A stretch of 64,000 bases of DNA from Limnomonas spitsbergensis. Lineage: Eukaryota > Chlorophyta > Chlorophyceae > Chlamydomonadales. Location of the stretch: NCBI GenBank assembly GCA_037349105.1, contig JAYJMM010000011.1, positions 434,001 to 498,000 of the forward strand, read 5' to 3'. Of this stretch, positions 8,994-36,960 are shown piece by piece. The stretch's first letter is position 1; each line of letters begins with the position of its first letter. The notes under the pieces are model-generated. The model saw only the letters and a program-made list of their open reading frames with translations. It ran no database searches and had not been told where the DNA came from. Made by a program: the position numbers and the translations under genes.

Positions 8994-9337
8994 CTATGGA
9001 TTCTTTGACTTAACAAGGGCATTTGGGGCGGTACACACTACATTTGTGTTTTGGGCGGTACTAAGGAACAAGACGCACGTGGGCATACTATTATGGGGGC
9101 ACACACACACCTGCGCATGCTCATGCACACACACATGCATGTACACGTGCACAAACATGTTTGCACATGGGCAGACATGCACACCCACCTGGGCACGCAC
9201 ATGGACATGGAGGTAATTAGACTGGTAAAACCGAGCGACTTCAACCCGATTCAGTCTAATTGAATTATGGCAACGCGTATTGCAAGGGATCCAACTCATG
9301 CCAGCACATTTGAAAGTAACAGCTAGGAGTTCCCCAC
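8994..9337 (-). other. Start of ABC1-like intron 1, with CA/TG-rich stretch
   Basis: Unique intron sequence follows the donor at 9337-9336. Positions 9098-9215 are rich in CACACA, CATGCA and ACATG alternations, a Z-DNA-prone purine-pyrimidine tract. I see no exon here. Confidence 0.5.
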
Positions 9338-13121: not shown

Positions 13122-13396
13122 TTGACAGTATTGTATCTCCGTACCGGGCAAGCCTGACGGAGCCGATTCACAGTTTTTTCCGAAAGGGCCAGGAAGGGAG
13201 GTCGGCCAGACATGCCCTGTTTGGCGAACTTTCGGTTCCCCTAGGCCTACCCCCACTTGGGCCTAGTAGCCGTTGTTTCTTCCTAAAAACCCGGGGGCAG
13301 CTGAGCATCACCAGATGCCTCTCGCATGCCCCTCACAGAGGTGTACGCTTGTCACTCATCACTCATCACTAGTTGCCTCTCGCATTCCCCTTACAG

Positions 13397-13967
13397 GTGT
13401 TTGCACTCATCCTCAGCACAACGTCCCACAGGCGCTTTGCCTCGAGTCATTGCCAGACGTCACCAGTGCCAGGCCAGCGCTCCGGTACGGACCATATTCC
13501 GATGTCCCCTAGCACATACAGGCGCTCCGGCGCAAACTGCCCCAGATCTCGGTCCCAGCCCTGCTAGAAGCCTGTCCAAATCTGCCACCGTCACTTGTGG
13601 GAGGATTGGCGCGGCACGTAGGGCTGCTGGCGGTACAGCTGGCGGGACAGCTTTCGGACGCCAGATTGTTGTAGCAATGTCTGGGATGTTTGTGTCCGGC
13701 GGCTCAACCTGCGGAGAAGCAGACACAACAAGCACGTCAGCGGCGGTGGCGGGTGCGTCAAGCGGGGTGGCTGGTGGGCGTCGGCGGCGGGTGGTGGCGT
13801 CAGGGATGTCCGGGTCAATGGGAGGAGCTGGCGCAGCGCCGGCGGCGGTGAATGCGTCAAGCGGGGTGGCTGGTGGGCGTCGGCGGCGCGTGGTGGCGTC
13901 AGCGCGCAACCCATTTAAGGAAGCGCAGAATATTGAGATCCTTCCGGGAGGCGCTCCAAACACAGTG
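13397..13967 (+). CDS. OPR-like gene, first recognised exon (A)
   Basis: The acceptor CCCCTTACAG precedes the first base, which completes a split codon. The donor is GTG|GTGGGT at 13968, phase 0. The start reads YRCLHSSSAQRP and then an Arg/Ser/Ala-rich stretch resembling an organelle transit peptide. A 99-bp in-frame duplication (13755-13801 and 13854-13900) repeats SSGVAGGRRRRVVAS. The exon closes with IEILPGGAPNTV. A copy of the acceptor region lies at about 13315-13345, and copies of the exon end plus donor lie at 14011-14135. The minus strand is also open here but gives no consistent exon chain. Confidence 0.7.
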
Positions 13968-16900
13968 GTGGGTTCAGGGTATGGGGTATAGGGTGTAGGG
14001 TTTTGGGCTAATGGTTTAAGGAAGCGCAGAATATTGAGATCCTTCCGGGAGGCGCTCCAAACACAGAGGTGGGTTCAGGGTATAGGGTGTAGGGCTAATG
14101 GTTCAAGGAAGCGCTCCAAACACAGTCGTAGGCTTAGGTGTGGGGATTTGGTTGACAAAGTAGGGGGCAGGGTAAGGGAAATTATGGTCATCTTTATGCA
14201 TTATAAGCCCCCTCCCCCCCCTCTCACCTACAGGTGCGGCGCATGAGCTATGCGACCAGCCATGCAATCACCCCCAACAGACTCCACCCCTCCGTACTAC
14301 ATTATAAGCCCCCCCCCCTCCCCCCTCACCTGCAGGTGCGGCGCATGAGCTATGCGACCAGCCATGCAATCACCCCCAACAGACTCCACCCCTCCGTACT
14401 ACATTATAAGGCCCCCCCCCCTCTCACCTGCAGGTGCGGCGCATGAACTATGCGACCAGCCATGCAATCTCCCCCAACAGACTCTACCCCTCCATAATGC
14501 ATTATAAGCCCCCTCCCCCCTCACCTGCAGGTGAGGCGCATGAACTATGTGACCAGCCATGCAATCACCCGCAACAGACTCCACCCCTCCATAATGCATT
14601 ATAAGCCCCCTCCCCCCTCTCACCTGCAGGTGCGGCGCATGAACTATGCGACCAGCCATGCAATCACCCGCAACAGACTCTACCCCTCCATAATGCATTA
14701 TAAGCCCCCTCCCCCCTCACCTGCAGGTGAGGCGCATGAGCTATGAGATCAGCCATGCAATCTCCCCCAACAGACTCCACCCCTCCATAATGCATTATAA
14801 GCCCCCTCCCCCCCCTCACCTGCAGGTGCGGCGCATGAGCTATGCGACCAGCCATGCAATCTCCCCCAACAGACACCACCCCTCCATAATGCATTATAAG
14901 CCCCCCTCCCCCCCCTCTCTCCTGCAGGTGAGGCGGATGAGCTATGAGATCAGCCATGCAATCTCCCTGGCTGACCTCAGCAGACTAGTACGGGCCAACA
15001 GGTGAGACGGGCAAAGAAATAAAGAAATGTATATGAGCGGAGATATATTCGATTTCCTTTGATGATTATGTGAGGCAGCCCCCATCAGACTAGTACAGGC
15101 AAACAGGTGAGGGGGGGGGGTTCAATTAACTTGGGTGGCTCTGACAAGAAAGGGAGGGTGGGCAAGGGACAGGCTGGTGAGGGCCAATAGGTGAGGAGGG
15201 TGGATTTAATTAACTTGGGTGGCTCTAACGAGAGAGGGAGGGTGGGCAAGGGACAGGCTGGTGAGGGCCAATAGGTGAGGAGGGTGGGCAAGGGACAGGC
15301 TGGTGAGGGCCAATAGGTGAGGAGGGTGGGCAAGGGACAGGCTGGTGAGGGCCAATAGGTGAGGAGGGTGGATTTAATTAACTTGGGTGGCTCTAACGAG
15401 AGAGGGAGGGTGGGCAAGGGACAGGCTGGTGAGGGCCAATAGGTGAGGAGGGTGGGCAAGGGACAGGCTGGTGAGGGCCAATAGGTGAGGAGGGTGGGCA
15501 AGGGACAGGCTGGTGAGGGCCAAAAGTTGAGGAGGGTGGACAAGGGACAGGCTGGTGAGGGCCAATAGGTGAGGAGGATCGATTCAATTAACTTGGGTGG
15601 CTCTGACAAGAAAGGGAGGGTGGGCAAGGGACAGGCTGGTGAGGGCCAAAGGTGAGGAGGGTGGGCAAGGGACAGGCTGGTGAGGGCCAAAAGTTGAGGA
15701 GGGTGGACAAGGGACAGGCTGGTGAGGGCCAATAGGTGAGGAGGATCGATTCAATTAACTTGGGTGGCTCTGACAAGAAAGGGAGGGTGGGCAAGGGACA
15801 GGCTGGTGAGGGCCAAAGGTGAGGAGGGTGGGCAAGGGACAGGCTGGTGAGGGCCAAAGGTGAGGAGGGTGGGCAAGGGACAGGCTGGTGAGGGCCAATA
15901 GGTGAGGAGGGTGGGCAAGGGACAGTCTGGTGAGGGCCAATAGGTGAGGAGGGTGGGCAAGGGACAGTCTGGTGAGGGCCAATAGGTGAGGAGGGTGGGC
16001 AAGGGACAGGCTGGTGAGGGCCAATAGGTGAGGAGGGTGGGCAAGGGACAGGCTGGTGAGGGCCAATAGGTGAGGAGGGTGGGCAAGGGACAGGCTGGTG
16101 AGGGCCAATAGGTGAGGAGGGTGGGCAAGGGACAGTCTGGTGAGGGCCAATAGGTGAGGAGGGTGGGCAAGGGACAGTCTGGTGAGGGCCAATAGGTGAG
16201 GAGGGTGGGCAAGGGACAGGCTGGTGAGGGCCAATAGGTGAGGAGGGACCTTATATCCTTAAGTAGCTTCGGCCCAGGCTGCGCTGTTTCGTTATCTCCC
16301 ATGCCCCCCACGGGGCTTAGCTTTATTTATTTATTTATTTATTTATTTGTAACCTTAAGTGGGATAGCCCGCTCACGACATTATGCGGGCTGCTTTCAAC
16401 CAAGCGCGATTTGTTTTGTGTTGGCTCTGACGTGAGGGGGCCGGCGCCGGGTACAGTCCAATAGGTGAGGATGGGTTATTAAAGTGATGTTGATTGTAAT
16501 GGGAGGCGGTGCTGGTTGAATACAAGGCCTGTTATAATATATTGGGATTCACATTATTAATGATGTATTATTAGTATTCACATTATTAATGATGTATTAT
16601 TACAGCGGTTCTGACTCATGTCTGCACTTTTCAGGTTTCAGATTAAAATTATAAAAGCATATTATGTCGACATAAGCATTATAAGTCGACATAAGATGAG
16701 CGTGTGGAAGATCACAGTTGCTGCCGATTTCGGTGCTGCATATCGATGACGTCGAGAAGCAGCAAGGGGTGCATCAAATGGATGTAGCACTCAATCTGAA
16801 GGTGCTCATGTTCAAGTTATGTCCACTGCGTATGTCAACATGTCATGTTTTACATTTCAATCATCCCCGGTGGTGTGCGGTTCGAACCCCCGAAATTCTT

Positions 16901-19900
16901 TAATCCCCGGTGGGCTCAGTGGAAATACACTGATTAGCAGCTCATCCTGAGGTGTGCGGTGCGAACCCTGCCAAGGTTCATTTGTTCAAGTTATGTCCAC
17001 TTGGTATGTCGGCATGACATGTTTTAGATTTCAATCCGAAACCTAGAAAGTGACGATAAGCCGATAAGTTAGAACCGCTATAATGATGAACCCCATTCCC
17101 CACATCTTTTCAGCTCCATTCCCCTTTGCATTTTCAGGCATAAGGCCCCTCAGGCACATGACGATTATAGCTATTAACTATCAGCTCCATTCCCCTTTGT
17201 ATTTCAGGCATAAGGCCCCTCAGGGTGTGTGGCGTGAGAAGCACGAGGCGGCAGTGCTCATGAGGGCGGCTGTGCTGCTTTACTACAAGGCAGTAACGGG
17301 TGAGTGGGAGCGGCCCGGCCAAGGAGCGTTGTTAAAGACGCAGCCTGACGCAGCCTGACGCAGCCTGGCGCAGCCTGACGCAGCCTGACGCAGCCTGACG
17401 CAGCCTGACGCAGCCTGACGCAGCCTGACGCAGCCTGACGCAGCCTGGCGCAGCCTGGCGCAGCCTGACGCAGCCTGACGCAGCCTGACGCAGCCTGACG
17501 CAGCCTGGCGCAGCCTGACGCAGCCTGACGCAGCCTGACGCAGCCTGACGCAGCCTGACGCAGCCTGACGCAGCCTGACGCAGCCTGGCGCAGCCTGACG
17601 CAGCCTGACGCAGCCTGACGCAGCCTGACGCAGCCTGACGCAGCCTGACGCAGCCTGACGCAGCCTGACGCAGCCTGACGCAGCCTGACGCAGCCTGACG
17701 CAGCCTGACGCAGCCTGACGCAGCCTGACGCAGCCTGACGCAGCCTGACGCAGCCTGACGCAGCCTGACGCAGCCTGACGCAGCCTGACGCAGCCTGGCG
17801 CAGCCTGACGCAGCCTGACGCAGCCTGACGCAGCCTGACGCAGCCTGACGCAGCCTGACGCAGCCTGACGCAGCCTGACGCAGCCTGACGCAGCCTGACG
17901 CAGCCTGACGCAGCCTGACGCAGCCTGACGCAGCCTGACGCAGCCTGGCGCAGCCTGGCGCAGCCTGGCGCAGCCTGGCGCAGCCTGACGCAGCCTGACG
18001 CAGCCTGACGCAGCCTGGCGCAGCCTGGCGCAGCCTGACGCAGCCTGACGCAGCCTGACGCAGCCTGACGCAGCCTGACGCAGCCTGGCGCAGCCTGACG
18101 CAGCCTGACGCAGCCTGACGCATAAAACCATAGCCCATTTGTATGATGATGATGCTGGACCATTTAAGATCCGGATCTGGCCGAGCAGCTGACGGCTCTC
18201 CTGGCGTTGTGTGCTGGTGCGGCCTGGAGGCCCGTCGTCATGCGGCTAAGTGCCAGAACCACAAAACCCTTTGTATGATGGCGCAGGACCGCAAGACCCT
18301 GAGCTAGCTGAGCAGCTGACGGCTCTCCTGACTTTGTGTGCTGGAGCGGCCCGGCGGCCGGGCGTCATGCGGCAATTGGAGGGCAGCCATGCTCGGCAGC
18401 TGCTGTCTGCCGCATGCCACATGGGCTGCACAGTGCCGCGCGTGCTTTCAGGAGCCATCATGACAGAGCTCGTCCGCGACTCAGGTACATGTGTGGGATG
18501 GGAGTATGAACAGGTATGAATGTGCTGTATTGGTGTGGATGGGTGGATGGGGCTGCCAGGCGGGGCAGCTGCTGCTCGCTTCATGTCACATGGGCTGCAC
18601 AGTGCCACGCTTGCTTTCTGGAGCCATTATGGCAGAGCTGTTTCGCGACTCAGGTGGATATGTGGGATGGGAGTGTGAACATGTATGGATATGTGTGAAG
18701 GGTGTGGATGGTTGGATGAGGTGGCAGCTGTTGTCTGCCGCATGCCACCTGAGTTGCACGGTTCTGCGCGTGCTTTCAGGCGCCATCATGACAGAGCTCC
18801 TCCGCGACGCATGTAGATGTGCGGGGCAGGAGTGTGAGTAAGTATGAATATGTGGATGGATGTGGAGGTGTGGATGAGGCAGTGGGGTGCAGCAGCTGCT
18901 GTTTTCTGCCTGCCAAATATCACTACACCATACTCAACACTCACCACCCACCACCCACCGATCAACACTCACCACACACCACTTACCACTCCATACACAT
19001 AACACACACAATGCACTGATCAACACATACCACACAACACACACCACTCACAACTCACCAACCACCACTCACCAGCCACCACACACCACTCACAACACAC
19101 CACACACCATTCACCAGCCACCACACACCACTCACAACACACCACACCACTCACCAGCCACCACACACCACTCACAACACACCACACACCACTCACCAAC
19201 CACCACACAACACACATCACTCACAACACACCATACACCACTCACCAGCCATCACACACCACTCACAACACACCAACCACCACCGTCCAGCCACCACACA
19301 CCACTCACCAGCCACCACACACCACTCACACATCACCAACCACCACTCACCAGCCACCACACACCAATCACCACACATCACTCACAACAAGCCACTCACA
19401 ACACAACACACACCACTCACCAGCCACCACACACCACATATCACCCACCACCCAACACTCACCAGCCACCACACAACACTCACACCTCACCAACCACCAC
19501 TCATCAGCCACCACACACCACACAATACACACCACTCACAACACACCATACACCACTCACCAGCCACCACACACCACACACCGCACACCAATCACCACAC
19601 ACCACACACCGCACACACCACACACCGCACACCAATCACCACACACCGCACACCAATCACCACTCACCGCACACCACCAACCACACCCACACACCACTCA
19701 CAACTCACTGCACACTACTCGTTGCACAACAATCCACACTCACCACACACCGCACACCACTCACCACACACCACTCACCACTCACCGCACACTACTTGCT
19801 GCACACCACTCCACACTCACCACTCACCGCACACCACGCATCACTCACCGCACACCACTCACCACTCAACACACACCACTCATCGCACACCACGCACCAC

Positions 19901-22900
19901 ACTCACCTCACCTCACACTACTCGCTGCACACCACTCCACACTCACCACTCACCCCACACCACTCGCTGCAAACCACTCCACACTCACCACTCACCACAC
20001 ACTACTTGCTGCACACCACTCCACACTCACCACTCACCACACACCACTCGCTGCATATCACTCCACACTCACCACTCACCGCACACTACTCGCTACACAC
20101 CACTCCACATTCGCCACTCACCGCACACCACTCACCGCACACCACACACTACTCACCGCACACCACTCACCACTCACCGCACACCACTCACCACACTCCA
20201 CTCACCTCACACTACTCGCTGCATACCACTCCACACTCCACACGCACCTTTCACTACTCGCTGCACACCACTCCACACTCACCACTCACCACACACCACT
20301 CGCTGCATATCACTCCACACTCACCTCTCACCTTTCACTACTCACTACACACCACTCCACACTCACCACTCACCGCACACTACTCGCTGCATATCACTCC
20401 GCACTCACCACTCACCTCACACCACTCGCTGCACACCACTCCACACTCACCACACACCACACACCACTCGCTGCATATCACTCCACACTCACCACTCACC
20501 ACACACCACTCGCTGCATATCACTCCACACTCACCACTCACCGCACACTACTCGCTGCACACCACTCCACACTCACCACTCACCGCACACCACTCGCTGC
20601 ATATCACTCCACACTCACCTCTCACCACACACCACTCACTGCACACCACACACTACTCACCGCACACCACTCACCACTCACCGCACACCACTCACCACAC
20701 TCCACTCACCTCACACGTCTCGCTGCATACCACTCCACACTCCACACGCACCTTTCACTACTCGCTGCACACCACTCCACACTCACCACTCACCACACAC
20801 CACTCGATGCATATCACTCCACATCCACCTCTCACCTTTCACTACTCGCTACACACCACTCCACACTCACCACTCACCTCACACTACTCGCTGCACACCA
20901 CTCCACACTCACCACACACCACACACCACTCGCTGCATATCACTCCACACGCACCACACACCACTCACTACTCGCTGCATATCACTCCACACTCACCACT
21001 CACCACACACCACTCGATGCATATCACTCCACACTCACCACTCACCGCACACTACTCGCTGCATATCACTCAACACTCACCACTCACCACACACCACTCG
21101 CTGCATATCACTCCACACTCACCACTCACCACACACCACTCGCTGCATATCGCTCCACACTCACCACTCACCACACACCACTCGCTGCATATCACTCCAC
21201 ACTCACCACTCACCACACACCACTCGCTGCATATCACTCCACACTCACCACTCACCTCACACTACTCGCTGCATATCACTCCACACTCACCACTCACCTC
21301 ACACTACTCGCTGCACACCACGCCACACTCACCACTCACCACACACCACTCGCTGCATATCACTCCACACTCACCACTCACCTCACACTACTCGCTACAC
21401 ACCACTCCACACTCGCCACTCACCGCACCACTCACCGCACACCACTCACCACTCACCGCAAACCACTCACCACTCACCGCACACCACTCACTACACTCCA
21501 CTCACCTCACAATACTCGCTGCATACCACTCCACACTCCACACGCACCTTTCACTACTCGCTGCACACCACTCCACACTCACCACTCACCACACACCACT
21601 CGCTGCATATCACTCCACACTCACCACTCACCACACACTACTCGCTGCTTATCACTCCACACTCACCACTCACCTCACACTACTCGCTGCTTATCACTCC
21701 ACACTCACCACTCACCTCACACTACTCGCTGCATATCACTCCACACTCACCACTCACCTCACACTACTGGCTGCACACCACTCCACACTCACCACTCACC
21801 ACACACCACTCGCTGCATATCACTCCACACTCACCTCTCACCTCACACTACTCGCTGCTTATCACTCCACACTCACCACTCACCTCACACTACTCGCTGC
21901 ATATCACTCCACACTCACCACTCACCTCACACTACTCGCTGCATATCACTCCACACTCACCACTCACCTCACACCACTCGCTGCATATCACTCCACACTC
22001 ACCACTCACCTCACACTATTTGCTGCTTATCACTCCACACTCACCTCTCACCGCACACTACTCGCTACACACCACTCCACACTCGCCACTCACCGCACAC
22101 TACTCGCTACACACCACTCCACACTCGCCACTCACCGCACACTACTCACTGCATCACTCCACACTCACCACTCACCTCACACTACTCGCTACACACCACC
22201 ACACTCGCCACTCACCTCACACCACTCGCTGCATATCACTCCATACTCACCACTCACCTCACACTACTCGCTACATATCACTCCACACTCACCACTCACC
22301 GCACACTACTCGCTACACACCACTCCACACTCACCACTCACCTCACACTACTCGTTGCATATCACTCCACACTCACCACTCACCACACACTACTCGCTGC
22401 ATATCACTCCACACTCACCACTCACCACACACCACTCACTGCATATCACTCCACACTCACCACTCACCTCACACTACTCGCTGCATATCACTCCACACTC
22501 ACCACTCACCGCACACTACTCGCTGCATATCACTCCACACTCACCACTCACCACACACTACTCGCTGCATATCACTCCACACTCACCACTCACCACACAC
22601 TACTCGCTGCATATCACTCCACACTCACCACCCACCTCACACTACTCGCTGCATATCACTCCACACTCACCACTCACCGCACACTACTCGCTGCATATCA
22701 CTCCACACTCACCACACACTACTCGCTGCATATCACTCCACACTCACCACTCACCTCACACTACTCGCTGCTTATCACTCCACACTAACCACTCACCACA
22801 CACCACTCGCTGCATATCACTCCACACTCACCACTCACCTCACACTACTCGCTACACACCACTCCACACTCACCACTCGCCGCACACCACTCACCGCACA

Positions 22901-28900: not shown

Positions 28901-31900
28901 GCCCGGGCTGTCCCGGATGGCCTGGGGGGTGGCCGTCGCCGGCCCACATGACCAGATAAAAAGTAACTGACATGTAGCTGAAACGTAGCAGACGTGTAGC
29001 TGAATACAAGATGTTATTATCGCAGGCCCAGAGGCAGGGCGTCCTGTCCGTGTCCGGTCTGTCCCGCATGGCCTGGGGATTCGCGGTTTCCGGCCAACAC
29101 GACCCGGAGCTGTTCAACCTCATGGAGGAGCTGGCTGTTGGATCTGCTGCCAGATCTGCTTCAGGATCCGGAGCCGGCGGCGGCGGGGGCCCGCCGGTTG
29201 ACCTTCCCGCCTCGGACCCACGGTCGCTGTCCAACCTGGCCTACGCCTTCGCGCGGGCAAAGGTGCGGTGCATTTCGTGGCTTAGAGTTTAACCATAAAC
29301 CGTGGTTAAGGGTTTATCGTGCAGTGTTAACCATAAACCAAGGGGCAGAGGTGTGTTGGTTTGGGGTGTACGGTTTAGGGGAAATATGTTCAAACCTTCA
29401 ACCAAGGAGCATTTATGGTTGAGGGTACAGGGTACAGGTTTTCAACCCAAAACCAAGGGGGGCAAAGGTGCGGTGCATTTATGGTTGAGGGTACAGGATA
29501 GAGGGTACAGGTCTTTAACTCTAAACCAAGGGAGGCAAAGTTGAATTTAGGGTGCAGGGTGCAGGGTAGAGGGTGCAGGGTAGAGGGTAGAGGGTGCAGG
29601 GTAGAGGGTGCAGGGTAGAGGGTAGAGGGTGCAGGGTAGAGGGTAGAGGGTAGAGGGTGCAGGGTAGAGGGTGCAGGGTAGAGGGTGCAGGGTAGAGGGT
29701 AGAGGGTACAGGGTAGAGGGTGCAGGGTAGAGGGTAGAGGGTGCAGGGTAGAGGGTACAGGGTAGAGGGTGCAGGGTGCAGGGTAGAGGGTAGAGGGTGC
29801 AGGGTGCAGGGTAGAGGGTGCAGGGTAGAGGGTGCAGGGTAGAGGGTACAGGGTAGAGGGTACAGGGTAGAGGGTACAGGGTAGAGGGTGCAGGGTAGAG
29901 GGTGCAGGGTAGAGGGTGCAGGGTAGAGGGTGCAGGGTAGAGGGTACAGGGTAGAGGGTACAGGGTAGAGGGTACAGGGTAGAGGGTGCAGGGTAGAGGG
30001 TAGAGGGTACAGGGTAGAGGGTGCAGGGTACAGGGTAGAGGGTGCAGGGTAGAGGGTACAGGGTAGAGGGTAGAGGGTAGAGGGTGCAGGGTAGAGGGTA
30101 CAGGGTACAGGGTACAGGGTACAGGGTGCAGGGTAGAGGGTAGAGGGTAGAGGGTAGAGGGTGCAGGGTAGAGGGTACAGGGTACAGGGTACAGGGTAGA
30201 GGGTGCAGGGTAAAGGGTAAAGGGTAGAGGGTGCAGGGTAGAGGGTGCAGGGTAGAGGGTGCAGGGTAGAGGGTGCAGGGTAGAGGGTACAGGGTAGAGG
30301 GTACAGGGTAGAGGGTGCAGGGTAGAGGGTGCAGGGTAGAGGGTACAGGGTAGAGGGTAGAGGGTAGAGGGTGCAGGGTAGAGGGTACAGGGTACAGGGT
30401 ACAGGGTAGAGGGTGCAGGGTAAAGGGTAAAGGGTAGAGGGTGCAGGGTAGAGGGTAGAGGGTAGAGGGTAGAGGGTGCAGGGTAGAGGGTACAGGGTAC
30501 AGGGTACAGGGTAGAGGGTGCAGGGTAAAGGGTAAAGGGTAGAGGGTGCAGGGTAGAGGGTGCAGGGTAGAGGGTACAGGGTAGAGGGTGCAGGGTAGAG
30601 GGTAGAGGGTACAGGGTAGAGGGTGCAGGGTACAGGGTAGAGGGTGCAGGGTAGAGGGTACAGGGTAGAGGGTAGAGGGTAGAGGGTGCAGGGTAGAGGG
30701 TACAGGGTACAGGGTACAGGGTACAGGGTGCAGGGTAGAGGGTAGAGGGTAGAGGGTAGAGGGTAGAGGGTGCAGGGTACAGGGTACAGGGTACAGGGTA
30801 CAGGGTAGAGGGTGCAGGGTAAAGGGTAAAGGGTAGAGGGTGCAGGGTAGAGGGTAGAGGGTAGAGGGTGCAGGGTAGAGGGTGCAGGGTAAAGGGTGCA
30901 GGGTAGAGGGTGCAGGGTAGAGGGTAGAGGGTAGAGGGTAGAGGGTGCAGGGTACAGGGTACAGGGTAGAGGGTACAGGGTGCAGGGTACAGGATAGAGG
31001 GTGCAGGGTACATGGTAGAGGGTGCATGGTACAAGATATAGGGTACAGGGTAGAGGGTGCAGGGTACAGGGTGCAGGGTACAGGATAGAGGGTGCAGGGT
31101 AGAGGGTACAGGGTAGAGGGTACAGGGTAGAGGGTGCAGGGTAGAGGGTGCAGGGTACAGGATAGTGGGTGCAGGGTGCAGAGTAGAGGGTGCAGGGTAC
31201 AGGGTAGAGGGTACAGGATAGAGGGTGCAGGGTACAGGGTAGAGGGTGCAGGGTACAGGGTAGAGGGTGTAGGGTACAGGGTAGAGGGTGCAGGGTACAG
31301 GATTTAGGGTGCAGGGTACAGGATTTAGAACATCAACCAAGGGGCAAAACAGCATGGTGCATTTAGGGCTCAAGGTACTGGTACAGGTACAGGTTTTGAA
31401 CCCTAAACCACATGGCAAAGGTGCGGTGCATTTAGGGTACAGGGTGCAGGTTTTGAAACCCCCTAACCAAGGGGCAAAGGTGCGGTGCATTCACTTAGGG
31501 GCAGAAGGTGTGGTGCAACGCCTACTATGAGCTGAAGTTCTAAACCCAAACCCCGACATGCTGAACCCTGAACCCGAAACTCGCCCTCAGGTGCTATGCC
31601 CGCAGCATATGCCTCTGATATGCCCAGATTCAAAGTAGCTGACATGTAGCTGAAACGTGGCAGACGTGTACCTGAATACAAGATGTTCTTACTGCAGGCC
31701 CAGAGGCAGGGGTTAAGTAAACCCACGAAGCTTAAACCATGAACCCTAAATGCTAAACCGTTCACTGATACAACCTCTTCACCTGAATCAGTGTTTCTTA
31801 GTGGATGCTGGACCTCCTTTGATGGGCCGTGCTGCGGCCACCCTGGGCTGATTGACACCAAACCTGGACCGGCCTCCGGCTAGTGGCCTTGGCAGCAGGG

Positions 31901-34900
31901 CTGGCCGAGCCAGGGGCTGGTGGCCATAGGCCACAGTGTAGCTGAACTGTATAGCTGAAAGTGATATGTAGCTGAAAGTGATGCGGTAACCACTGCAAGA
32001 AACCCTAATCCCGAAACTCGAAACCCAAAACCCTTATCCTGCACCCAGGTGCCATGCCCGCGGCTTATGCCCCTCGTCTGCAACGCCTTTGTGACTGCTT
32101 TACGAGGAACTGGAACGGGAGGAACGGGAGGGAGAGCAACGTTTTCAGCAGCAACAGCCGCATCAATATCGACGGCCTCCTCGTCCTCCACGTCCTCCTC
32201 GTCCTCCTCTTCGTCTGAACGGGTCGAGGCGCCTCATGTTGCCAAGATGATGTGGGCGACTGCTGAGCTGCAGTACAAGGACACTGGGCTGATGTACGCG
32301 GTGTGCGATGTACTGCCGGGGGCGCGGTACAGGTGTGTGGGTAATGGTATTATACAGGCACAGGGTGTGCTGTGTTGCCTTTGTTGTATTTTTACACTTT
32401 TGATGTGGGCGACTGCTGAGCAGCAGTTCAAGAACACCGGGCTGATGCACGCGGTGTGCGATGTACTGCCGGGGGCGCGGTACAGGTGGGTGGGCAATGC
32501 TGTAAGACAGGGTACAGGGTGAGCTGTATTGCCTTTGTTGTATTTTTACACTTTTGATTTGGGCGACTGCTGAGCTACAGTACAAGGACACCGGGCTGAT
32601 GAACGCGGTGTGCGGTGTACTGCCTAAGGCGTGGTACAAGTGTGTGGGTAAGGCTGCGGGACAGGGTATGTAAGATCAGCTCCGCGGTGCTTGAGCTGGC
32701 GCATGTGGCCTGGTGATCCAGGGTTCTAGAACGAACCTTTCACCCTGAAATATAAACCTAAACCATGTTCCTGCAGGTTCACAGCCGAAGAGCTGGCGCA
32801 TGCGGCCTGTCGATTCAGGGTTTAAAAAGGGATGATAAACCCTAAACCCAAAGCCATGTGCCTGCAGGTTCACTTCTGATGAGCTGGCGCATGTGGTTTG
32901 GCGATCCAGGGTTTCCAAACAAACCCTTAACATGAAACCCTAAACCCTGTGTCTGCAGGTTCACAGCCGAAGAGCTGGCGCATGTGGCCTGGCGATCCAG
33001 GGTTTTGAAACAAACCCTACACCCGGAACCCTAAACTCTGTGTCTCCAGGTTCACGGCCGATGAGCTGGCGCATGTGGCCTGGGGGTTCAGCCAGCAACT
33101 GCACTACAAGCCACAGGTGTTTGAAGCCCTGGCCAAACAGTTTGTGAACGGAAAGTGAGTGCTTTCAGGGGATCAGTTGAGATTTTCATCGTCAGTTTAG
33201 GGTTTCAGTGTCAGTTGGGGGTTCAGCCGGCAACTGCACTACAAGCCACAGGTGTTTGAAACCCTGGCCAAACAGTTTGTGAACGGAAAGTGAGTGCTTT
33301 CAGGGGATCAGTTGAGGTTTTCATCGTCAGTTTAGGGTTTCAGTGTCAGTTGGGGGTTCAGCCGGCAACTGCACTACAAGCCACAGGTGTTTGAAACCCT
33401 GGCCAAACAGTTTGTGAACGGAAAGTGAGTGCTTTCAGGGGATCAGTTGAGGTTTTCATCGTCAGTTTAGGGTTTCAGTGTCAGTTGGGGGTTCAGCCAG
33501 CAACTGCACTACAAGCCACAGGTGTTTGAAGCCCTGGCCAGACGTAAAGTGAGTGCTTCACAAAAGCCTGTTCAAGTTACAAAAATGCTTGGTAGTGCTT
33601 TGAGGGGTTTGTTTCAGTTCAGGGTTTCATCGTCTGTTGAGATTTTTAATCGAGGAACTAAACCCTCATTACATAACTGAACCCTTATCCCGGAACTAAA
33701 CTCGTATCTTAGAACAACCGCTAAACCCTTATCATATAATTAACCTATAACTAACCTAAAACTAACAACCGTGAGCGAGTTGCTTCTTGCTTGCTGCCTG
33801 ATGGTAACGGTGCAGATTTGGCTACGGCCCCAAGCTGCGTTGTTTCCTTAACCTCCACGTAGCTTTATTTATTTCTTATCCTATAACTAAACCCTTCTCA
33901 TTTAACAAAGTGCCTTGGACCCTGCACATGCACCCTGGACCCTTAACCCTTAACCCTAAACCATAAACCCTCAAACCTTAACCCTAAAGTACACAGCCAG
34001 CTGGCACTACTTACGTACCCTAGGTCCCTAAACCCAAAACCAAAGCCAAAAACCAAACCCAAAACCTTATACCAGAACCAAGACATAAGCCCTGGAACAT
34101 ACTTCCACATACATGCAGGATGTACGGCATATCAGACAGCCAGCTGGCGCTGCTGGCGTGCGCTTTTGCAACCGTCGGCCACGACAGCGTCCCGCTGTTC
34201 TTCACCATTGCGCGGCTGGCGGGCGCCAGGCTGGACACTTTGACGCCAGGGGATCTGGCTGGACTGGCCTGGGCGCTGGCGACGGTGAGTCAAGTTCAAA
34301 TTAGAAATTAAAAGAGAAATGAAACATGCGTGTTAGGTGAAGACATGGAGGACTGGCAGACATGCCAGGCTGGCAGCTATGCCCGGCTGGCGGCATCAGA
34401 CCGGACACTTTGATATAGTGTGTTGTAAGATTAAGTGTGGAAAATTTGTACCAGTGTCAGGCTGGCAGCCATGCCAGGCTGGCGGGCGTCAGGCTGGATA
34501 CCCTGACAACTGGGGATGTGGCAGGACTGTCCTGCAATGACATCAGACTTGCCAGGCTGGCGCCCCGCTGTACTTCACCATTGCACGGCTGGCATGGGCC
34601 AGGCTGGATACAGTGGATCCGCTTGCGCCCAGAGACCTAGCGGGACTGGCATGGGCGCCAGAAACGGTGGGTCGAGCTAAAAACAATAATATTTTAAAAT
34701 ACACCGTTGATGAAACAAGAACCGATATTAAAAATAAAAATGCCTTCCTTGTCCTCACCTCCCTAAACCCTAAACCCGAAACGCCTTCCTTGTCCTCACC
34801 TCCCTAAACCCTAAACCCTAAACGCCTTCCTTGCCCTCACCTCCATAAACCCTAAACCCTAAACGCCTTCCTTGTCCTCACCTCCCTAAACCTCAAACCC

Positions 34901-36874
34901 TAAACGCCTTCCTTGTCCTCACTTCCCTTTGCCCTTTAACCTTAACCCTAAACGCCTTCCTTGTCCTCACCTCCCGATGTTTGTAGGCTGGCCATCATAA
35001 CACGTTAATATTGGATGCTGCAGCAGAAGCCACCGCAGGGAACCTCCATGCGCTCACCGCAGGGAACCTCCATGCGCTCACCGCAGGGGACCTCCATGCG
35101 CTCACCGCAGGGAACCTCCATGCGCTCACCGCAGGGAACCTCCATGCGCTCACCGCTCGCCAGCTGGCTGATCTGACCGTGGCGCACCAGTACCGGTTAT
35201 TAAGAAATGCCTCTCTTATCCCCACCCCTCCCTTGCCCTTGCCATGACCTGTGCCCAGACTCACCTACCCACCCACCCACCCCTCCCTTGCCCTTGCCAT
35301 GACCTGTGCGCAGGCCAGCTACCCACCCACCCACCCCTCACTTGCCATGACCTGTGCGCAGGCCAGCTACCCACCCACCCACCCACCCACCCCTCACTTG
35401 CCCTTGCCCAGACTCACCCACCCACCCACCCACCCACCCCTCACTTGCCATTGCCCAGACTCACCTACCCACCCACCCACCCCTCCCTTGCCCTTGCCAT
35501 GACCTGTGCGCAGGCCAGCTACCCACCCACCCACCCCTCACTTGCCATGACCTGTGCGCAGGCCAGCTACCCACCCACCCACCCACCCACCCCTCACTTG
35601 CCCTTGCCCAGACTCACCCACCCACCCACCCACCCCTCACTTGCCATTGCCCAGACTCACCTACCCACCCACCCACCCCTCCCTTGCCCTTGCCATGACC
35701 TGTGCGCAGGCCAGCTACCCACCCACCCACCCCTCACTTGCCATGACCTGTGCGCAGGCCAGCTACCCACCCACCCACCCACCCACCCCTCACTTGCCCT
35801 TGCCCAGACTCACCCACCCACCCACCCACCCCTCACTTGCCATTGCCCAGACTCACCTACCCACCCACCCACCCCTCCCTTGCCCTTGCCATGACCTGTG
35901 CGCAGGCCAGCTACACACCCACCCACCCCTCACTTGCCATGACCTGTGTGCAGTCCAGCTACCCACCCACCCACCCACCCACCCACCCCTCACTTGCCAT
36001 TGCCCAGACTCACCTACCCACCCACCCACCCCTCACTTTCCCTTGCCATGACCTGTGCGCAGGCCAGCTACCCACCTACCCACCCGCCCCCCCCCTCACG
36101 TGCCCTTGCCCAGACTCACCCACCCACTCACCCACCCCTCACTTGCCCTTGCCATGACCTGTGCGCAGGCCAGCTACCCACCCACCCACCCACCCCTCAC
36201 TTGCCCTATCTTAGACTCACCCACCCACCCACCCACCCCTCGCTTGCCCTTGCCATGACCTGTGCGCAGGCCAGCTACCCACCCACCCACCCCTCCCTTG
36301 CCCTTACCTTGACCTGTGCGCATGCCAGCTACCAGAGACGACATGGGAGAAGTGCACGCTAACATGCAACCCTTCTGTTCCTCTGAGCTCTCATCCTCTC
36401 CTCCACGTTAACGGCGCGGATGTGGCTTCGGCCCAGGCTGCGCTGTTTCCTTGACACTCACGCCCCCCATGGGCGGAGCTTTCTTTCTTTCATCCTCTCC
36501 TCCCTATCCTTGCTTTGGCCGGTGCGCAGGCCGGCCATCAGAACACTTTAATTATGGATGCTGCAGCGAAAGCCGCCGCACGGAACCTCCATGCGCTCAC
36601 TGCTCGCCAGCTCGCTGACCTGACCGCGGCGCTCAACGCGACGTGTCCCTCCAGCGGCGCGAGCCGCGAGCTCTCTCGGGCGGTGGCGGCGCGCGGAAGG
36701 GGCGAGGAGTACCACCAGCAGAGGGAGATGATGATGATGCGTTGGCAGGAGGCGATGGATGTTCATGCGAAGCGCGAGGGGGAGGAGGGAGCTGAGGTTG
36801 ACTCGACGGGAGATGGAGCAGTAGCAGTAGCAGCACCAGCACCAGCACCAGCAGCGCAAATAGATGGGGTATGA
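13397..36874 (+). CDS. OPR/FASTK-like helical-repeat protein gene, 11 exons (5' end incomplete)
   Basis: Eleven exons join without any phase conflict: 13397-13967, 14928-15001, 17208-17299, 18287-18484, 27149-27552, 28329-28460, 29026-29262, 32049-32332, 33050-33154, 34119-34284 and 36530-36874. They give 2,608 coding bases and at least 868 residues. The first part is basic and Ser/Ala-rich like a transit peptide. The remainder carries degenerate repeats of about 36-40 residues built on L..lAWAfa, for example LMAELVWALAKLR, LSRMAWGFAVSG, LSNLAYAFARAK, LAHVAWGFSQQL and LAGLAWALAT. This pattern is that of octotricopeptide/FAST-kinase-like alpha-solenoids, which in green algae bind plastid or mitochondrial RNAs; that role is inferred. 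An upstream first exon ending in phase 2 is still missing. Introns total 20.9 kb, mostly satellites. No RAP domain is visible at the C-terminus. Confidence 0.85.
13968..14215 (+). repeat. Duplicated donor edge of exon A
   Basis: Positions 14011-14085 repeat the last roughly 55 bases of exon A and its donor (GGAAGCGCAGAATATTGAG, GCGCTCCAAACACAG, then AGGTGGGTTCAGGG). A shorter third copy is at 14097-14135. They lie directly downstream of the exon. Confidence 0.85.
14216..14927 (+). repeat. Seven tandem copies of the acceptor and start of exon B (97-102 bp units)
   Basis: Acceptor-like ACCTGCAGG or ACCTACAGG sites occur near 14226, 14328, 14426, 14523, 14622, 14719 and 14818. Each is followed by GTGCGGCGCATGAGCTATG or a close variant, the same sequence that opens the real exon at 14928. 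Each unit then runs ATCAGCCATGCAATC or a variant, CAACAGACTCCACCCC, CATTATAAGCCCC and a pyrimidine tract. These are complete 3' splice-site modules repeated upstream of one exon. Confidence 0.93.
14928..15001 (+). CDS. OPR-like gene, exon B
   Basis: The acceptor is CTCTCCTGCAG; the donor is AACAG|GTGAGA, phase 2. The exon encodes VRRMSYEISHAISLADL and SRLVRANR, resembling the opening helix of an OPR repeat region. It is the only member of the local repeat family that continues into unique coding sequence and a donor, which is why it is taken as the true exon. Tandem copies of its 5' edge lie upstream and of its 3' edge downstream. Confidence 0.85.
15075..16252 (+). repeat. 42-bp minisatellite derived from the donor of exon B
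   Basis: The unit is GGGCCAATAGGTGAGGAGGG followed by TGGGCAAGGGACAGGCTGGTGA. The exon B end reads CAGACTAGTACGGGCCAACAG then GTGAGACGGGCAAAG. The array unit has the matching order CAGGCTGGTGAGGGCCAATA then GGTGAGGAGGGTGGGCAAG. A less diverged copy (CAGACTAGTACAGGCAAACA) sits at 15087-15106. Longer blocks containing TTCAATTAACTTGGGTGG give a higher-order structure. Nearly every unit carries a GGTGAG donor core. The transcribed strand is G-rich. Confidence 0.92.
16265..16352 (+). mobile_element. SINE-like element, copy 1 (5'-truncated)
   Basis: It shares the family body (GCTTCGGCCCAGGCTGCGCT...GGGGC.TAGCTTT) and ends in an (ATTT)n tail. CCTTAAGT occurs immediately before (16257-16264) and after (16353-16360), an 8-bp target duplication. 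It is inserted at the end of the 42-bp array in the intron between exons B and C. Confidence 0.8.
16361..17106 (+). other. Intron B-C unique stretch
   Basis: It contains a diverged donor-type copy (CCAATAGGTGAGGA, about 16459), a duplicated 30-bp AT-rich motif (ATTCACATTATTAATGATG, 16548-16604) and a repeated GTTCAAGTTATGTCCACT motif (about 16812 and 16985). No exon is needed here, since exon B joins exon C in phase. Confidence 0.6.
16904..16972 (+). mobile_element. tRNA-like / tRNA-derived SINE candidate
   Basis: A GGGCTCAGTGG stretch (16912-16922) resembles a pol III A box. GGTGCGAACCC (16958-16968) resembles a B box at roughly tRNA spacing. A second B-box-like GGTTCGAACCCCC is at about 16879. 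I cannot fold a convincing cloverleaf with a clear anticodon, so a tRNA-derived repeat or chance match is more likely than a functional tRNA. Confidence 0.3.
17107..17207 (+). repeat. Duplicated acceptor of exon C
   Basis: TCAGCTCCATTCCCCTTTG, a TTTCAG site and GCATAAGGCCCCTCAGG occur at about 17110-17155. The same sequence recurs at 17181-17222, where it leads into the exon. Confidence 0.88.
17208..17299 (+). CDS. OPR-like gene, exon C
   Basis: The acceptor is GTATTTCAG; the donor is ACGG|GTGAGT. The exon enters after phase 2 and leaves in phase 1. It encodes HKAPQGVWREKHEAAV then LMRAAVLLYYKAVTG, consistent with helical-repeat sequence. Exons on both sides fit in phase. Confidence 0.85.
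17338..18122. repeat. 10-bp array CAGCCTGACG (about 79 units), nearly homogeneous
   Basis: The only variant seen is GACG to GGCG, in a minority of units, some clustered (17931-18025). There are no indels. It lies 38 bases after the donor of exon C. All minus-strand frames stay open and give spurious long open frames. Confidence 0.98.
18123..18286 (+). repeat. Partial copy of exon D and its upstream flank
   Basis: Positions 18175-18247 repeat the start of exon D (GAGCAGCTGACGGCTCTCCT, then a CGTCATGCGGC end). They are preceded by a TTTGTATGATG flank also found at 18270-18280. The copy lacks a clean acceptor. Confidence 0.85.
18287..18484 (+). CDS. OPR-like gene, exon D
   Basis: The acceptor is GATGGCGCAG; the donor is GACTCAG|GTACAT, phase 1. 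It encodes PQDPELAEQLTALLTLC, ARRPGVMRQLEG, ARQLLSAACHMGCTVP and LSGAIMTELVRDS. These are alternating amphipathic helices as in OPR/FASTK solenoids. The next exon is 8.66 kb away but fits in phase. Confidence 0.85.
18556..18840 (+). repeat. Two copies of the 3' half and donor of exon D
   Basis: Positions 18561-18660 and 18720-18815 repeat GGCAGCTGCTG, ACATGGGCTGCACAGTGCC, GGAGCCAT.ATG and CGCGACTCAGGT or diverged forms. Each continues into the intronic TGTGGGATGGGAGTGTGA sequence or a variant. They accumulate frameshifts and stops, so they are not extra exons of the same frame. Confidence 0.9.
18930..27115. repeat. CA-rich 42-bp satellite in intron D-E (8.2 kb)
   Basis: From about 18930 to 19900 the array is irregular, built from CACACACCACTCAC-like words. 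From about 19900 on, a 42-bp unit dominates: CTCGCTGCATATCACTCCAC then ACTCACCACTCACCTCACACTA. A block of about 2.7 kb (roughly 20.5-23.25 kb) is repeated almost exactly 2,752 bp downstream (to about 26.0 kb). The absence of TAA/TAG/TGA in the unit yields plus-strand open frames of more than 2,000 codons that are not credible proteins. Confidence 0.97.
27149..27552 (+). CDS. OPR-like gene, exon E
   Basis: The acceptor is CTCCCCGCAG; the donor is CAGCAG|GTGACG, phase 0. It starts KKMPCDDATLMAELVWALAK, a clear OPR/FASTK helix pair. It then becomes a Gln/Gly-rich low-complexity linker of about 100 residues. The exact donor is less certain because the low-complexity frame continues open beyond it, but this one matches the phase of exon F. 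Confidence 0.78.
27553..28328 (+). other. Intron E-F with G tracts and a decoy acceptor
   Basis: Positions 27563-27631 are dense G runs (G-quadruplex potential). Positions 27885-28010 are AT-rich with repeated GGATTTCTTTCAT-type words. Positions 28021-28063 repeat the acceptor of exon F (GCCTGCGTTTCCTCGTAGG followed by CTGCGGTG). Confidence 0.75.
28329..28460 (+). CDS. OPR-like gene, exon F
   Basis: The acceptor is TTTCCTCGTAG; the donor is CTACAG|GTAGGG. It is a 44-codon exon, phase 0 at both ends, ending LLWPELRRNAFKSLLEEK. A partial copy of its middle (GTGGCCGGAGCTGCGGCGGAA) occurs downstream. Confidence 0.82.
28461..29025 (+). repeat. Intron F-G: copies of exon F and of the exon G acceptor; TGTAGCTGAAA repeats
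   Basis: Positions 28550-28606 repeat part of exon F. Positions 28690-28760 and 28858-28945 repeat the acceptor and start of exon G (ACGCAGGCCCAGAGGC..GCGTC and CCGGGCTGTCCC). Positions 28663-28680 and 28755-28850 are an 11-bp repeat TGTAGCTGAAA, which recurs at 28973-29003. The same 11-bp word forms the tail of a dispersed repeat found at 31.8, 53.2, 59.9 and 62.9 kb. Confidence 0.85.
29026..29262 (+). CDS. OPR-like gene, exon G
   Basis: The acceptor is TTATTATCGCAG; the donor is GCAAAG|GTGCGG. It is a 79-codon exon, phase 0 at both ends. It encodes LSRMAWGFAVSGQHDPELF then NLMEEL, a Gly/Ser/Ala linker, and LSNLAYAFARAK. These are the most typical OPR/FASTK motifs of the window and identify the family. 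Confidence 0.88.
29263..29547 (+). repeat. Copies of the exon G donor
   Basis: GGCAAAGGTGCGGTGCATTT, the exon G end plus donor, recurs at about 29461. A diverged form occurs at about 29343, and GGCAAAG without the donor at 29532. Further copies lie beyond the 7-bp array at about 31415 and 31472. Confidence 0.85.
29548..31325. repeat. 7-bp telomere-like G-rich array (about 250 units)
   Basis: Units are GGGTAGA, GGGTGCA and GGGTACA with occasional GGGTAAA, in higher-order blocks. The 7-bp period and GGGT core resemble degenerate TTTAGGG-type repeats. The G-rich strand is the RNA-like strand of the gene, so transcripts would carry hundreds of GGG runs. It lies in intron G-H. Confidence 0.95.
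31326..31819 (+). repeat. Intron G-H: mixed splice-edge copies
   Basis: Donor copies of exon G lie at about 31415 and 31472, with a diverged one near 31505. An acceptor copy of exon H (CCTCAGGTGCTATGCCCGCAG) is at about 31587-31610. An acceptor copy of exon G (CTGCAGGCCCAGAGGCAGGG) is at about 31693-31712. Confidence 0.85.
31820..31987 (+). mobile_element. Dispersed ~160-bp repeat, copy 1
   Basis: It starts TGATGGGCCGTGCTGCGGCC, contains GATTGACACCAAACC, GGCCTCCGGC and GGCAGCAGGGCTGGC, and ends in TGTAGCTGAA repeats and GATGCGGTAA. Related copies are at 62928-63079 (same strand) and about 53191-53320 (inverted). There is no coding capacity. Confidence 0.75.
32049..32332 (+). CDS. OPR-like gene, exon H
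   Basis: The acceptor is GCACCCAG; the donor is TACAG|GTGTGT, phase 2. It encodes VPCPRLMPLVCNAFVTAL, completing the repeat begun at the end of exon G. A Thr/Ser/Gly linker with poly-Ser follows, then APHVAKMMWATAELQYKDTG and LMYAVCDVLPGARYR. Copies of its last part and donor follow downstream. Confidence 0.87.
32397..32655 (+). repeat. Two copies of the exon H 3' end and donor
   Basis: Positions 32400-32500 and 32559-32650 repeat GTGGGCGACTGCTGAGC.GC, GGGCTGATG.ACGCGGTGTG, GTACTGCC and a TACAGGTG or TACAAGTG donor-like site. They sit in 155-160 bp units with the intronic CTTTTGAT lead sequence. Confidence 0.92.
32670..33049 (+). repeat. Four decoy copies of the exon I acceptor and start
   Basis: GGTTCACAGCCGAAGAGCTG or variants, then GCGCATGTGGCCTGG and GATCCAGGGTTT, occur at about 32775, 32867 and 32957. 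A truncated copy is at about 32688. They form units of about 90 bp ending with CCCTAAACCCTGTGTCTGCAG-type acceptors. The real exon follows at 33050. Confidence 0.93.
33050..33154 (+). CDS. OPR-like gene, exon I
   Basis: The acceptor is TGTCTCCAG; the donor is GGAAA|GTGAGT. The 105-base exon enters and leaves in phase 2. It encodes FTADELAHVAWGFSQQLHYK then PQVFEALAKQFVNG, a full OPR/FASTK-like unit. It is embedded between acceptor copies upstream and donor copies downstream. Confidence 0.88.
33155..33560 (+). repeat. 135-bp tandem copies of the exon I 3' part and donor
   Basis: Copies ending GAACGGAAAGTGAGTGCTTT recur at 33290 and 33425, each 135 bp after the exon's own donor. A truncated copy ends near 33550. 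Each retains the exon's last roughly 70 bases and a perfect GTGAGT, separated by a repeated intronic segment (CATCGTCAGTTTAGGGTTTC). Confidence 0.95.
33561..34118 (+). other. Intron I-J remainder
   Basis: AT-rich sequence with CCCTAAACC/CCCTTAACC telomere-type words and a SINE-like copy (33804-33876). A short ACAGCCAGCTGGCACTACTT at about 33990 resembles the exon J start (ACAGCCAGCTGGCGCTGCTG). Confidence 0.6.
33804..33876 (+). mobile_element. SINE-like element, copy 2
   Basis: The body is GTAACGGTGCAGATTTGGCT, ACGGCCCCAAGCTGCG, TTTCCTTAACCTCCACGTAG, then a CTTTATTTATTTCTT tail. It is more diverged than the others. CCTATAACTA flanks may be a target duplication (about 33750 and 33880), but nearby repeats make this uncertain. 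Confidence 0.65.
34119..34284 (+). CDS. OPR-like gene, exon J
   Basis: The acceptor is TACATGCAG; the donor is GCGACG|GTGAGT. Its first base completes the Lys codon split from exon I, and it leaves in phase 0. It encodes MYGISDSQLALLACAFATVG, FFTIARLAG and LTPGDLAGLAWALAT, two further solenoid helix pairs. Confidence 0.88.
34285..34735 (+). repeat. Degenerate copies of exon J
   Basis: Three partial copies lie at about 34350-34415, 34455-34530 and 34560-34680, with GCCAGGCTGG, CCGGACACTTTGA and CTGTACTTCACCATTGCACG-type matches. The last ends in an AACGGTGGGT donor-like site. All are disrupted. Confidence 0.8.
34736..34980. repeat. ~40-bp repeats with CCCTAAA telomere-type words
   Basis: Units of CTTCCTTGTCCTCACCTCCC followed by TAAACCCTAAACCCTAAACG occur five to six times. 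The CCCTAAA heptamer is the Arabidopsis-type plant/algal telomere repeat. It lies directly upstream of the decoy exon at 34987. Confidence 0.9.
34987..35247 (+). CDS. Duplicate or alternative last exon (K') of the OPR-like gene
   Basis: A TTTGTAG acceptor is followed by a frame nearly identical to the start of the last exon: AGHHNTLILDAAAEATAGNL. A 24-bp tandem repeat follows, giving LHALTAGN five times, then ARQLADLTVAHQY. It ends at TGA 35245-35247. Phase 0 matches the donor of exon J, so splicing to it would give a protein with a different, shorter C-terminus. It may be a decayed duplicate rather than a used exon. Confidence 0.5.
   Translation, partial: AGHHNTLILDAAAEATAGNLHALTAGNLHALTAGDLHALTAGNLHALTAGNLHALTARQLADLTVAHQYRLLRNASLIPTPPLPLP
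35248..36345. repeat. Array with ~12 acceptor-like TGTGCGCAGGCC sites
   Basis: Units of about 50-150 bp combine CACCCACCCACCCCTCACTT, GCCCTTGCCATGACC and TGTGCGCAGGCCAGCTACC, in a higher-order period of about 196-200 bp. The TGTGCGCAG|GCCAGC core matches the real acceptor of exon K (GGTGCGCAG|GCCGGC). Sites occur near 35308, 35358, 35508, 35558, 35704, 35754, 35900, 36055, 36165 and 36265. Confidence 0.9.
36405..36489 (+). mobile_element. SINE-like element, copy 3, with 14-bp target duplication
   Basis: This is an 85-bp element ending in CTTTCTTTCTT. TCATCCTCTCCTCC flanks it exactly (36391-36404 and 36490-36503). The duplicated target is the pyrimidine-rich tract of the exon K acceptor. A long target duplication with a short-repeat tail is typical of LINE-mobilised SINEs. 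Confidence 0.88.
36530..36874 (+). CDS. OPR-like gene, last exon (K)
   Basis: The acceptor is CCGGTGCGCAG, phase 0; stop TGA is at 36872-36874. It encodes AGHQNTLIMDAAAKAAA, NLHALTARQLADLTAAL, an Arg/Glu-rich helix with MMMMRWQEAMDV, and an Ala/Pro-rich tail. No RAP domain is seen, so the protein ends with a charged helix and a low-complexity tail. The stop codon lies at the junction with a SINE-like element. Confidence 0.85.
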   Translation, partial: AGHQNTLIMDAAAKAAARNLHALTARQLADLTAALNATCPSSGASRELSRAVAARGRGEEYHQQREMMMMRWQEAMDVHAKREGEEGAEVDSTGDGAVAVAAPAPAPAAQIDGV

Positions 36875-36960
36875 AAGAAAGAAAGAATGCTACGCCACCG
36901 TGAGGGGCGTGAGAGTTAAGGAAACAGCGCAGCCTGGGTCGAAGCCACATCCATACCGTT
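36873..36960 (-). mobile_element. SINE-like element, copy 4 (reverse orientation)
   Basis: Read on the plus strand it runs GAAAGAAAGAAAGAATGCTA, GTGAGGGGCGTGAGAGTTAA and GGAAACAGCGCAGCCTGGG up to CCACATCCATACCGTT. It begins at the stop codon of the OPR-like gene. A clear target duplication was not found; AGCGCAAA at about 36852 and 36993 is one candidate. Confidence 0.7.

Follow-up and report, generated by a model that had tools for sequence, protein, structure and literature searches.

The window analysed here is a stretch of 64,000 nucleotides from the green alga Limnomonas spitsbergensis, and positions given below are those of the window unless another contig is named. Between 13397 and 36874 it carries, on the plus strand, a gene of 11 exons in which all introns are GT..AG, AG|GT junctions are present, and the phases all match over 868 amino acids without a stop; as the splice sites were chosen by eye to fit, this continuity supports the model and is not independent proof of it. 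A Pfam search of the 868-residue product at an E-value of 1 matched no family, and "OPR-like" is a putative label from an earlier note, which had drawn attention to tandem repeats beside the exons that copy the exons' own boundaries.

Exons of the window gene, plus strand:
13397-13967, exon A
14928-15001, exon B
17208-17299, exon C
18287-18484, exon D
27149-27552, exon E
28329-28460, exon F
29026-29262, exon G
32049-32332, exon H
33050-33154, exon I
34119-34284, exon J
36530-36874, exon K

Using blastn of the 60 nt on either side of each junction, and requiring at least 30 bits and at least 7 to 8 nt on each side of the junction, we found a junction-crossing direct copy at 15 of the 21 junctions of this gene, involving 10 of its 11 exons. 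The count is 14/21 with 100 nt on either side and an E-value of 0.01, and also 14/21 when identity limits are added on both sides, the acceptor of exon H then dropping out. Acceptor copies belong to exons A, B, C, D, F, G, H, I and K, and donor copies to A, D, G, H and I and, in degenerate form, J; the donors of B, C, E and F and the acceptors of E and J fall below the rule, and exon E has no copy at all. The observation in the earlier note holds for the most part: its estimate of at least nine of the 11 exons is borne out, as are all of its upstream copies (A, B, C, F, G, H, I and K, with H lost under the strict rule), to which D is to be added, and all of its downstream copies except that of B. 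The donor of B has look-alikes, consisting of about 20 nt of exon end plus GTGAG near 15087 and 17 exact 16-mers GGGCCAATAGGTGAGG in a 42-bp array, which by eye fail the rule because the match ends about 5 nt beyond the junction. The carrier gene, said to behave alike, gave the same outcome at the single junction tested: a look-alike is present (exon end plus GTGCG near 56138), and it falls below the rule, its match ending about 5 nt past the junction.

Junction copies of the window gene, plus strand:
13306..13369, exon A acceptor copy, -33..+23, 80% (blastn)
14015..14145, two exon A donor copies, 86% and 82% (blastn)
17110..17154, exon C acceptor copy, 96% (blastn)
18146..18217, exon D acceptor copy, 81%, absent from the earlier list (blastn)
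28009..28058, exon F acceptor copy, 84% (blastn)
28649..28927, two exon G acceptor copies, 77% and 76% (blastn)
31639..31711, third exon G acceptor copy, 93%, in the intron after exon G (blastn)
29460..29480, exon G donor copy, 21 bp exact; a second one, 20 bp, at 31472-31491
31542..31616, exon H acceptor copy, degenerate, 73%, fails the strict rule (blastn)
34626..34682, exon J donor copy, degenerate, 74% (blastn)

Tandem arrays at the locus

The introns of the window gene hold 24 tandem arrays, five of which run over an exon edge where random sliding would lead one to expect 2.7 (P 0.08). These junction-crossing arrays hold 2,140 of the 15,223 array bp, the other 13,083 bp lying in arrays that cross no junction, and no junction copy was found on searching inside the 8-kb CACTCACC array, the 1.8-kb array of 14-bp units or the 0.8-kb array of 10-bp units. 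Because only 5/24 arrays and 2,140/15,223 array bp cross an exon edge, the description of satellites that start at splice junctions fits some satellites only, and the assertion that the copied segment always spans the junction is untrue of them.

Arrays of the window gene, plus strand:
14196..14967, array of ~98-bp units with exon B acceptor and exon start (TRF); 7 intronic copies; its end runs into exon B
15153..16247, 42-bp array, units with a 16-nt look-alike of exon B end and donor (TRF); below the copy rule
18395..18880, 169-bp x3 array, exon D end and donor, 2 intronic copies (TRF, blastn); crosses the junction
18932..27125, 8.2-kb CACTCACC-type satellite, intron D-E; no junction copy found inside, a counter-example
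32248..32668, 154-bp x2.7 array, exon H end and donor (TRF, blastn); crosses the junction
32760..33083, 91-bp x3.6 array, exon I acceptor and exon start, 3 intronic copies (TRF, blastn); crosses the junction
33081..33540, 135-bp x3.4 array, exon I end and donor, 2 intronic copies, 98% identical to the junction; crosses the junction
35252..36333, 196-bp array, units with acceptor-like GTGCGCAG|GCC; its end (36284-36336) aligns with the exon K acceptor at 74% and stops short of the exon

The 64-kb window is rich in tandem arrays overall, with very large satellites outside the window gene at 5201-8994, 42542-46315, 56208-59834 and 60060-62733 (units of 47, 82, 86 and 76 bp; 35-81 copies). By eye, telomere-like CCCTAAA runs, which we take to be of the plant type, are mixed with the junction arrays in the introns between exons H and K (32700-35000). 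A dispersed element with the core GGCCCAGGCTGCGCTGTTTCCTTAA occurs in the window at six places on both strands with at most 3 mismatches, where none would be expected; some of its copies are followed by a T-rich tail, and it looks like a short interspersed repeat. The motif ATGTAGCTGAAA, with 15 matches at no more than 1 mismatch against 0.22 expected, is found in small arrays and lies twice, by eye, near a common GGCCGTGCTGCGGCCACC element.

Dispersed motifs of the window:
16271-16295, 33827-33851, 36430-36454, 36916-36940, 54430-54454 and 54965-54989, both strands, GGCCCAGGCTGCGCTGTTTCCTTAA-core element
28665-28983, 31644-31655, 31966-31977, 59947-59969 and 63045-63067, ATGTAGCTGAAA motif

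Junction copies in an independent sample of genes

Profile searches for kinesin, TCP1 and HSP70 yielded a sample of 48 merged regions (31 kinesin, 9 TCP1 and 8 HSP70; 232,652 bp) in which genes and splice sites were picked without regard to repeats. Since preference was given to genes with many exons in a short span, and isolated scattered hits were set aside, the sample is biased towards compact genes. With a small script for spliced alignment we positioned 164 introns, keeping 142 and discarding 22 because of a low site score or a mismatch to the profile. Under the strict rule, 34 of the 284 sampled junctions have a junction-crossing copy, distributed over 16 of the 44 gene regions with kept introns (36/284 under the looser rule), and both boundaries are duplicated, at 19 of 142 acceptors and 15 of 142 donors. 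The frequency differs strongly between gene families, junction copies being present in 16/49 kinesin, 12/48 TCP1 and 2/45 HSP70 introns, and the window gene stands well above the sample as a whole (14/21 versus 34/284 junctions, Fisher P 5e-8). The highest copy number is 18, at one kinesin acceptor.

No inverted copy crossing a junction was found at any of the 284 sampled junctions, nor was any found in trans (0/284) when each junction was compared with one randomly chosen region of another family. With 34/284 direct copies against none in either control, junction copies exceed chance, and the earlier view of a recurrent process is upheld by their presence in many sampled genes. The same controls bear on the possibility that the copies are assembly artefacts or chance similarities: repeats are hard to assemble, and the assembly is described in the available text of the genome paper as polished PacBio (PMC11228838), but 16/44 gene regions are affected and most copies differ from their junction (approximately 69-99% identical in the sample) and so are not one read assembled twice, leaving this reading with next to no probability. 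An introner-like spread of one sequence through the introns of unrelated genes was also considered and set aside on the 0/284 in trans, a comparison that covered one other-family region per junction.

Two sampled loci illustrate the forms that such arrays take. At the kinesin acceptor with the highest copy number (G000:C82:946050-951640, L050), the 18 upstream copies are arranged in units of 57 bp, in which telomere-like CCCTAAAC is present as well. At a TCP1 donor (G000:C37:664398-674224, L038), an array of 2.3 kb with 41-bp units begins within one base of the junction. A degenerate exon-end copy lies at its far side, so that the array may have expanded within a junction duplication that was there before it; an initial count of this array as 50 donor copies was rejected, as its units lack the exon end and the single far-end copy is the one that passes the strict rule.

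Position of the copies relative to the junction

In a profile of ungapped copies (24 of 30 positions matching; 128 introns), acceptor coverage was 19/88 at -120, 16/107 at -100, 8/125 at -40, 12/128 at 0, 15/128 at +10, 6/128 at +50 and 0/128 at +70, and donor coverage was 11/107 at -100, 6/128 at -30, 13/128 at 0, 13/128 at +10 and 2/128 at +70. Coverage is broadly level over the junction, where it rises slightly above a minimum close by on the intron side, and it drops farther into the exon. In the cores of sampled exons, at least 75 nt from the ends of the profile hit, copies occur at 92/12,243 positions (0.0075), as compared to a coverage of 0.044 in introns when each array is counted once. 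The exon interiors of the window gene are less clean, with copies at 576/2,278 positions and three small exon-only arrays. Raw coverage as a test (window gene: junctions 9/21, intron core 0.776, exon interior 0.253) was dropped because large arrays inflate intron coverage, and each array was then counted once.

Counted in this manner, the junction/intron ratio in the sample is 1.93 (CI 1.31-2.62), 1.60 (1.02-2.25) and 1.63 (1.07-2.24) at three sizes of the scanning interval, rising to 2.4-2.8 in introns of at least 300 bp (2.80 at the setting that gives 1.93 overall); in the window gene it is 1.96 (CI 1.10-3.05), 2.26 and 2.23. When the sampled arrays are slid within their introns, 12/48 cross a junction where 5.9 would be expected (P 0.005; 13/47 against 5.4 in an earlier array set), as do 10/21 against 4.8 among those with a period of at least 40 (P 0.008) and 5/16 against 2.2 among those with a match of at least 90% (P 0.04). 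Such figures would be expected if duplication were targeted to junctions, with R-loops, polymerase pausing or replication conflicts raising its rate there. However, the symmetric 30-mer ratio of 1.93 owes part of its lean towards junctions to the slower divergence of exon halves, and for this reason an intron-seeded test and a simulation of passive duplication were added. With intron-only seeds the ratio is 1.19 (CI 0.59-1.90), falling to 0.93 (0.33-1.69) for closer copies, though it is 1.53 (1.02-2.10) for looser ones; the corresponding values in introns of at least 300 bp are 1.84 (0.95-2.91), 1.42 (0.50-2.63) and 2.34 (1.58-3.25). Also against targeting are the lack of a strong peak in the coverage profile and of a clear 5'/3' asymmetry, and the P of 0.08 for the arrays of the window gene taken alone. 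The simulation (600 introns, noisy, and run with neither insertions nor deletions) gave 1.14 for the symmetric window and 1.09 for intron seeds, and as the simulated exon-half bias is only ~1.14 versus the 1.93 seen, the tests leave room for a modest junction excess, at most about twofold, without establishing it. The comparison of satellites with random placement that the earlier note had proposed gives an excess of about twofold in some tests and no significant excess with intron-only seeds, and we consider targeted duplication unlikely, although it is the most serious of the alternatives weighed here.

The copies were also said to be directional, upstream of acceptors and downstream of donors. 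In the window and sample together, 107/110 copies do lie on the intron side of their own junction, an exon G acceptor copy in the next intron (31639-31711) being an exception, but the direction follows from geometry, because a duplication crossing an acceptor can leave exon starts only upstream.

Fate of the copies

If a copy drifts while the real site stays fixed, its AG/GT identity is expected to fall halfway between the intron identity and one. The splice dinucleotides of the copies are 0.920 identical as compared to 0.921 expected (48 junctions, window and sample; Wilcoxon P 0.18), and 0.922 as compared to 0.918 under the looser rule. The earlier note had suggested that selection for splice-site redundancy keeps the spare junctions, and under the looser rule every copy does keep its AG or GT at 40/51 junctions with copies. 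Retention at the neutral level, however, indicates that redundancy is not being kept, and the copies have a mean site score of 4.46 versus 6.02 for the real sites (simple matrix, P 1.6e-5), so that we regard this suggestion as very improbable. The same neutral-like retention argues against strong selection destroying the copies. On the simple matrix, at least one intronic copy scores equal to or above the real site at 26/48 junctions, which suggests that position helps the spliceosome to choose among sites; judging from the reading frames, the exon-proximal site would be the one used. Identity gradients run along some of the sampled arrays, and any unit-by-unit growth would give such gradients.

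Paralogous introns bear on the turnover of the copies. Forty pairs at the same position and in the same phase, with flanking protein at least 60% identical and with some introns reused, gave 80 junction pairs, in which (looser rule) copies were present in both partners in 3, in one partner only in 9 and in neither in 68. Because 9 of the 12 copy-bearing pairs differ though both partners have the intron, copies are gained and lost after the intron exists. One could otherwise envision the copies as relics of intron birth, the introns having arisen when exon sequence was duplicated in tandem (Rogers-type AGGT duplication), a mechanism documented in the literature (PMC3443670, PMC2891723, PMC4974935) and one with which the AG|GT junctions of the window gene would agree. 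Apart from the one-sided pairs, though, the copies include junction-adjacent intron sequence and not exon sequence alone, and we think such an origin improbable.

Introns that carry a junction copy have a median length of 760.5 bp, versus 298 bp for the others (30 and 112 introns, P 1e-8), although long introns also give more room for finding copies. The earlier idea that the process grows introns is in keeping with this difference but not with the paralogous pairs, in which the copy-bearing intron is not consistently the longer, and the earlier interpretation as a whole is partly supported.

Discussion

The junction copies are a real feature of a known kind, present over many sampled genes, and we think that they probably reflect general tandem duplication, purged in exon cores and tolerated where splicing hides the copies. 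On this explanation, the repeats would be stretches duplicated in tandem, some of them since extended to arrays, in which the repeated unit takes in an exon-intron junction by chance. The genome would duplicate short stretches, of tens to a few hundred bp, as direct tandems, presumably through slippage or unequal exchange. A duplication within an exon would alter the protein and tend to be purged by selection, while one in an intron or over a junction would be hidden in the mRNA provided that splicing occurs at the exon-proximal junction, the extra copies being spliced out. The junction copies would then drift like ordinary intron DNA, sometimes expanding to satellites, and be lost.

Direct computed support for this explanation comes from the tandem copies themselves, their presence in many sampled genes, their scarcity in exon cores, their neutral decay and the differences between paralogs. 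It is further favoured by the absence of a marked 5' or 3' preference (19 acceptors versus 15 donors of 142 each), by the placing of 107/110 copies on the intron side, by coverage in exon cores as compared to introns (0.0075 versus 0.044), by the empty inverted and trans controls (0/284 each) and by the intron-seeded ratio of 1.19, for which the passive simulation gave 1.09. Against it stand the array count (12/48 versus 5.9), the ratio of 1.93 versus a simulated 1.14 and the slight rise in coverage at the junction, as well as the window gene itself, which exceeds the sample (14/21 versus 34/284) and carries copies in its exon interiors (576/2,278). A stronger picture, in which junctions are moderate duplication hot spots (up to ~2x), introns lengthen from their exon edges and the spliceosome must pick the exon-proximal among near-equal sites, strikes us as doubtful; were it true, with hot spots and reliable exon-proximal choice, this genome would be a natural experiment in exon definition.

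Passive duplication offers a simple neutral explanation for the satellites and surplus splice sites that introns can acquire. Series of almost identical acceptors or donors next to a single real exon are natural test constructs for spliceosome choice, and partial exon copies may mislead gene finders.

Two known systems share some of these properties. Intron gain by tandem genomic duplication (AGGT duplication), reviewed in what is available of PMC3443670, is likewise a local tandem duplication involving splice motifs, but there the duplication of exonic sequence creates the intron, whereas the algal intron pre-exists and the edge-crossing stretch is repeated inside it; accordingly, 9 of the 12 copy-bearing paralogous pairs are one-sided with the intron in both partners. 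Human genes in segmental duplications have internal tandem repeats at exon-intron boundaries, minisatellites placed like those of the alga, according to the accessible part of PMC2812944. Those repeats lie in paralogs of recent origin, where they alter exons or give rise to introns, whereas in the alga the frame of conserved genes would be unaffected if the exon-proximal site is used. For Limnomonas spitsbergensis, an Arctic snow alga, the available text of the genome paper covers tandem repeats and intron length without junction copies (PMC11228838). Among the matches listed from the open-access literature, there was no report of junction-spanning repeats in algae.

The closest counterpart is found in amphioxus, where the structure already has a name, "mirage", although the earlier note knew of no named mechanism. 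The original mirage report is said to be that of Canestro in 2002. In the portions available, mirage minisatellites are described as tandem duplications across intron-exon boundaries in Adh3 and in the globins BflGb6 and BflGb9 (PMC3087553) and are also present in TnC (troponin C) and PGBD5 (PMC3902484); they affect either boundary, have units of 10 to ~160 bp in which many, not all, copies keep AG/GT, and show haplotype and somatic length variation (PMC3087553, PMC3902484). In the globins, RT-PCR suggested undisturbed splicing, and there too the mechanism was called unclear (PMC3087553). The algal repeats resemble mirages in that their units span the exon-intron boundary (15/21 junctions in the window gene, 34/284 in the sample), that both boundaries are duplicated (19 acceptors and 15 donors in the sample) and that many, not all, copies keep AG/GT (mean identity 0.920, 48 junctions). 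They differ in their green algal host, in involving 10/11 exons of one gene and 34/284 sampled junctions, and in reaching up to 18 copies per junction. For the alga, reading-frame continuity would agree with undisturbed splicing, and the differences between paralogous introns are an indirect sign of variation in copy number. What is new here is the occurrence in a green alga, the multi-gene frequency and the neutrality test. The algal case suggests that mirages may arise generally as a side effect of tandem duplication where genomes are rich in introns, and most striking are the frequency of the feature in this alga and the chance that it offers to test choice among near-identical sites.
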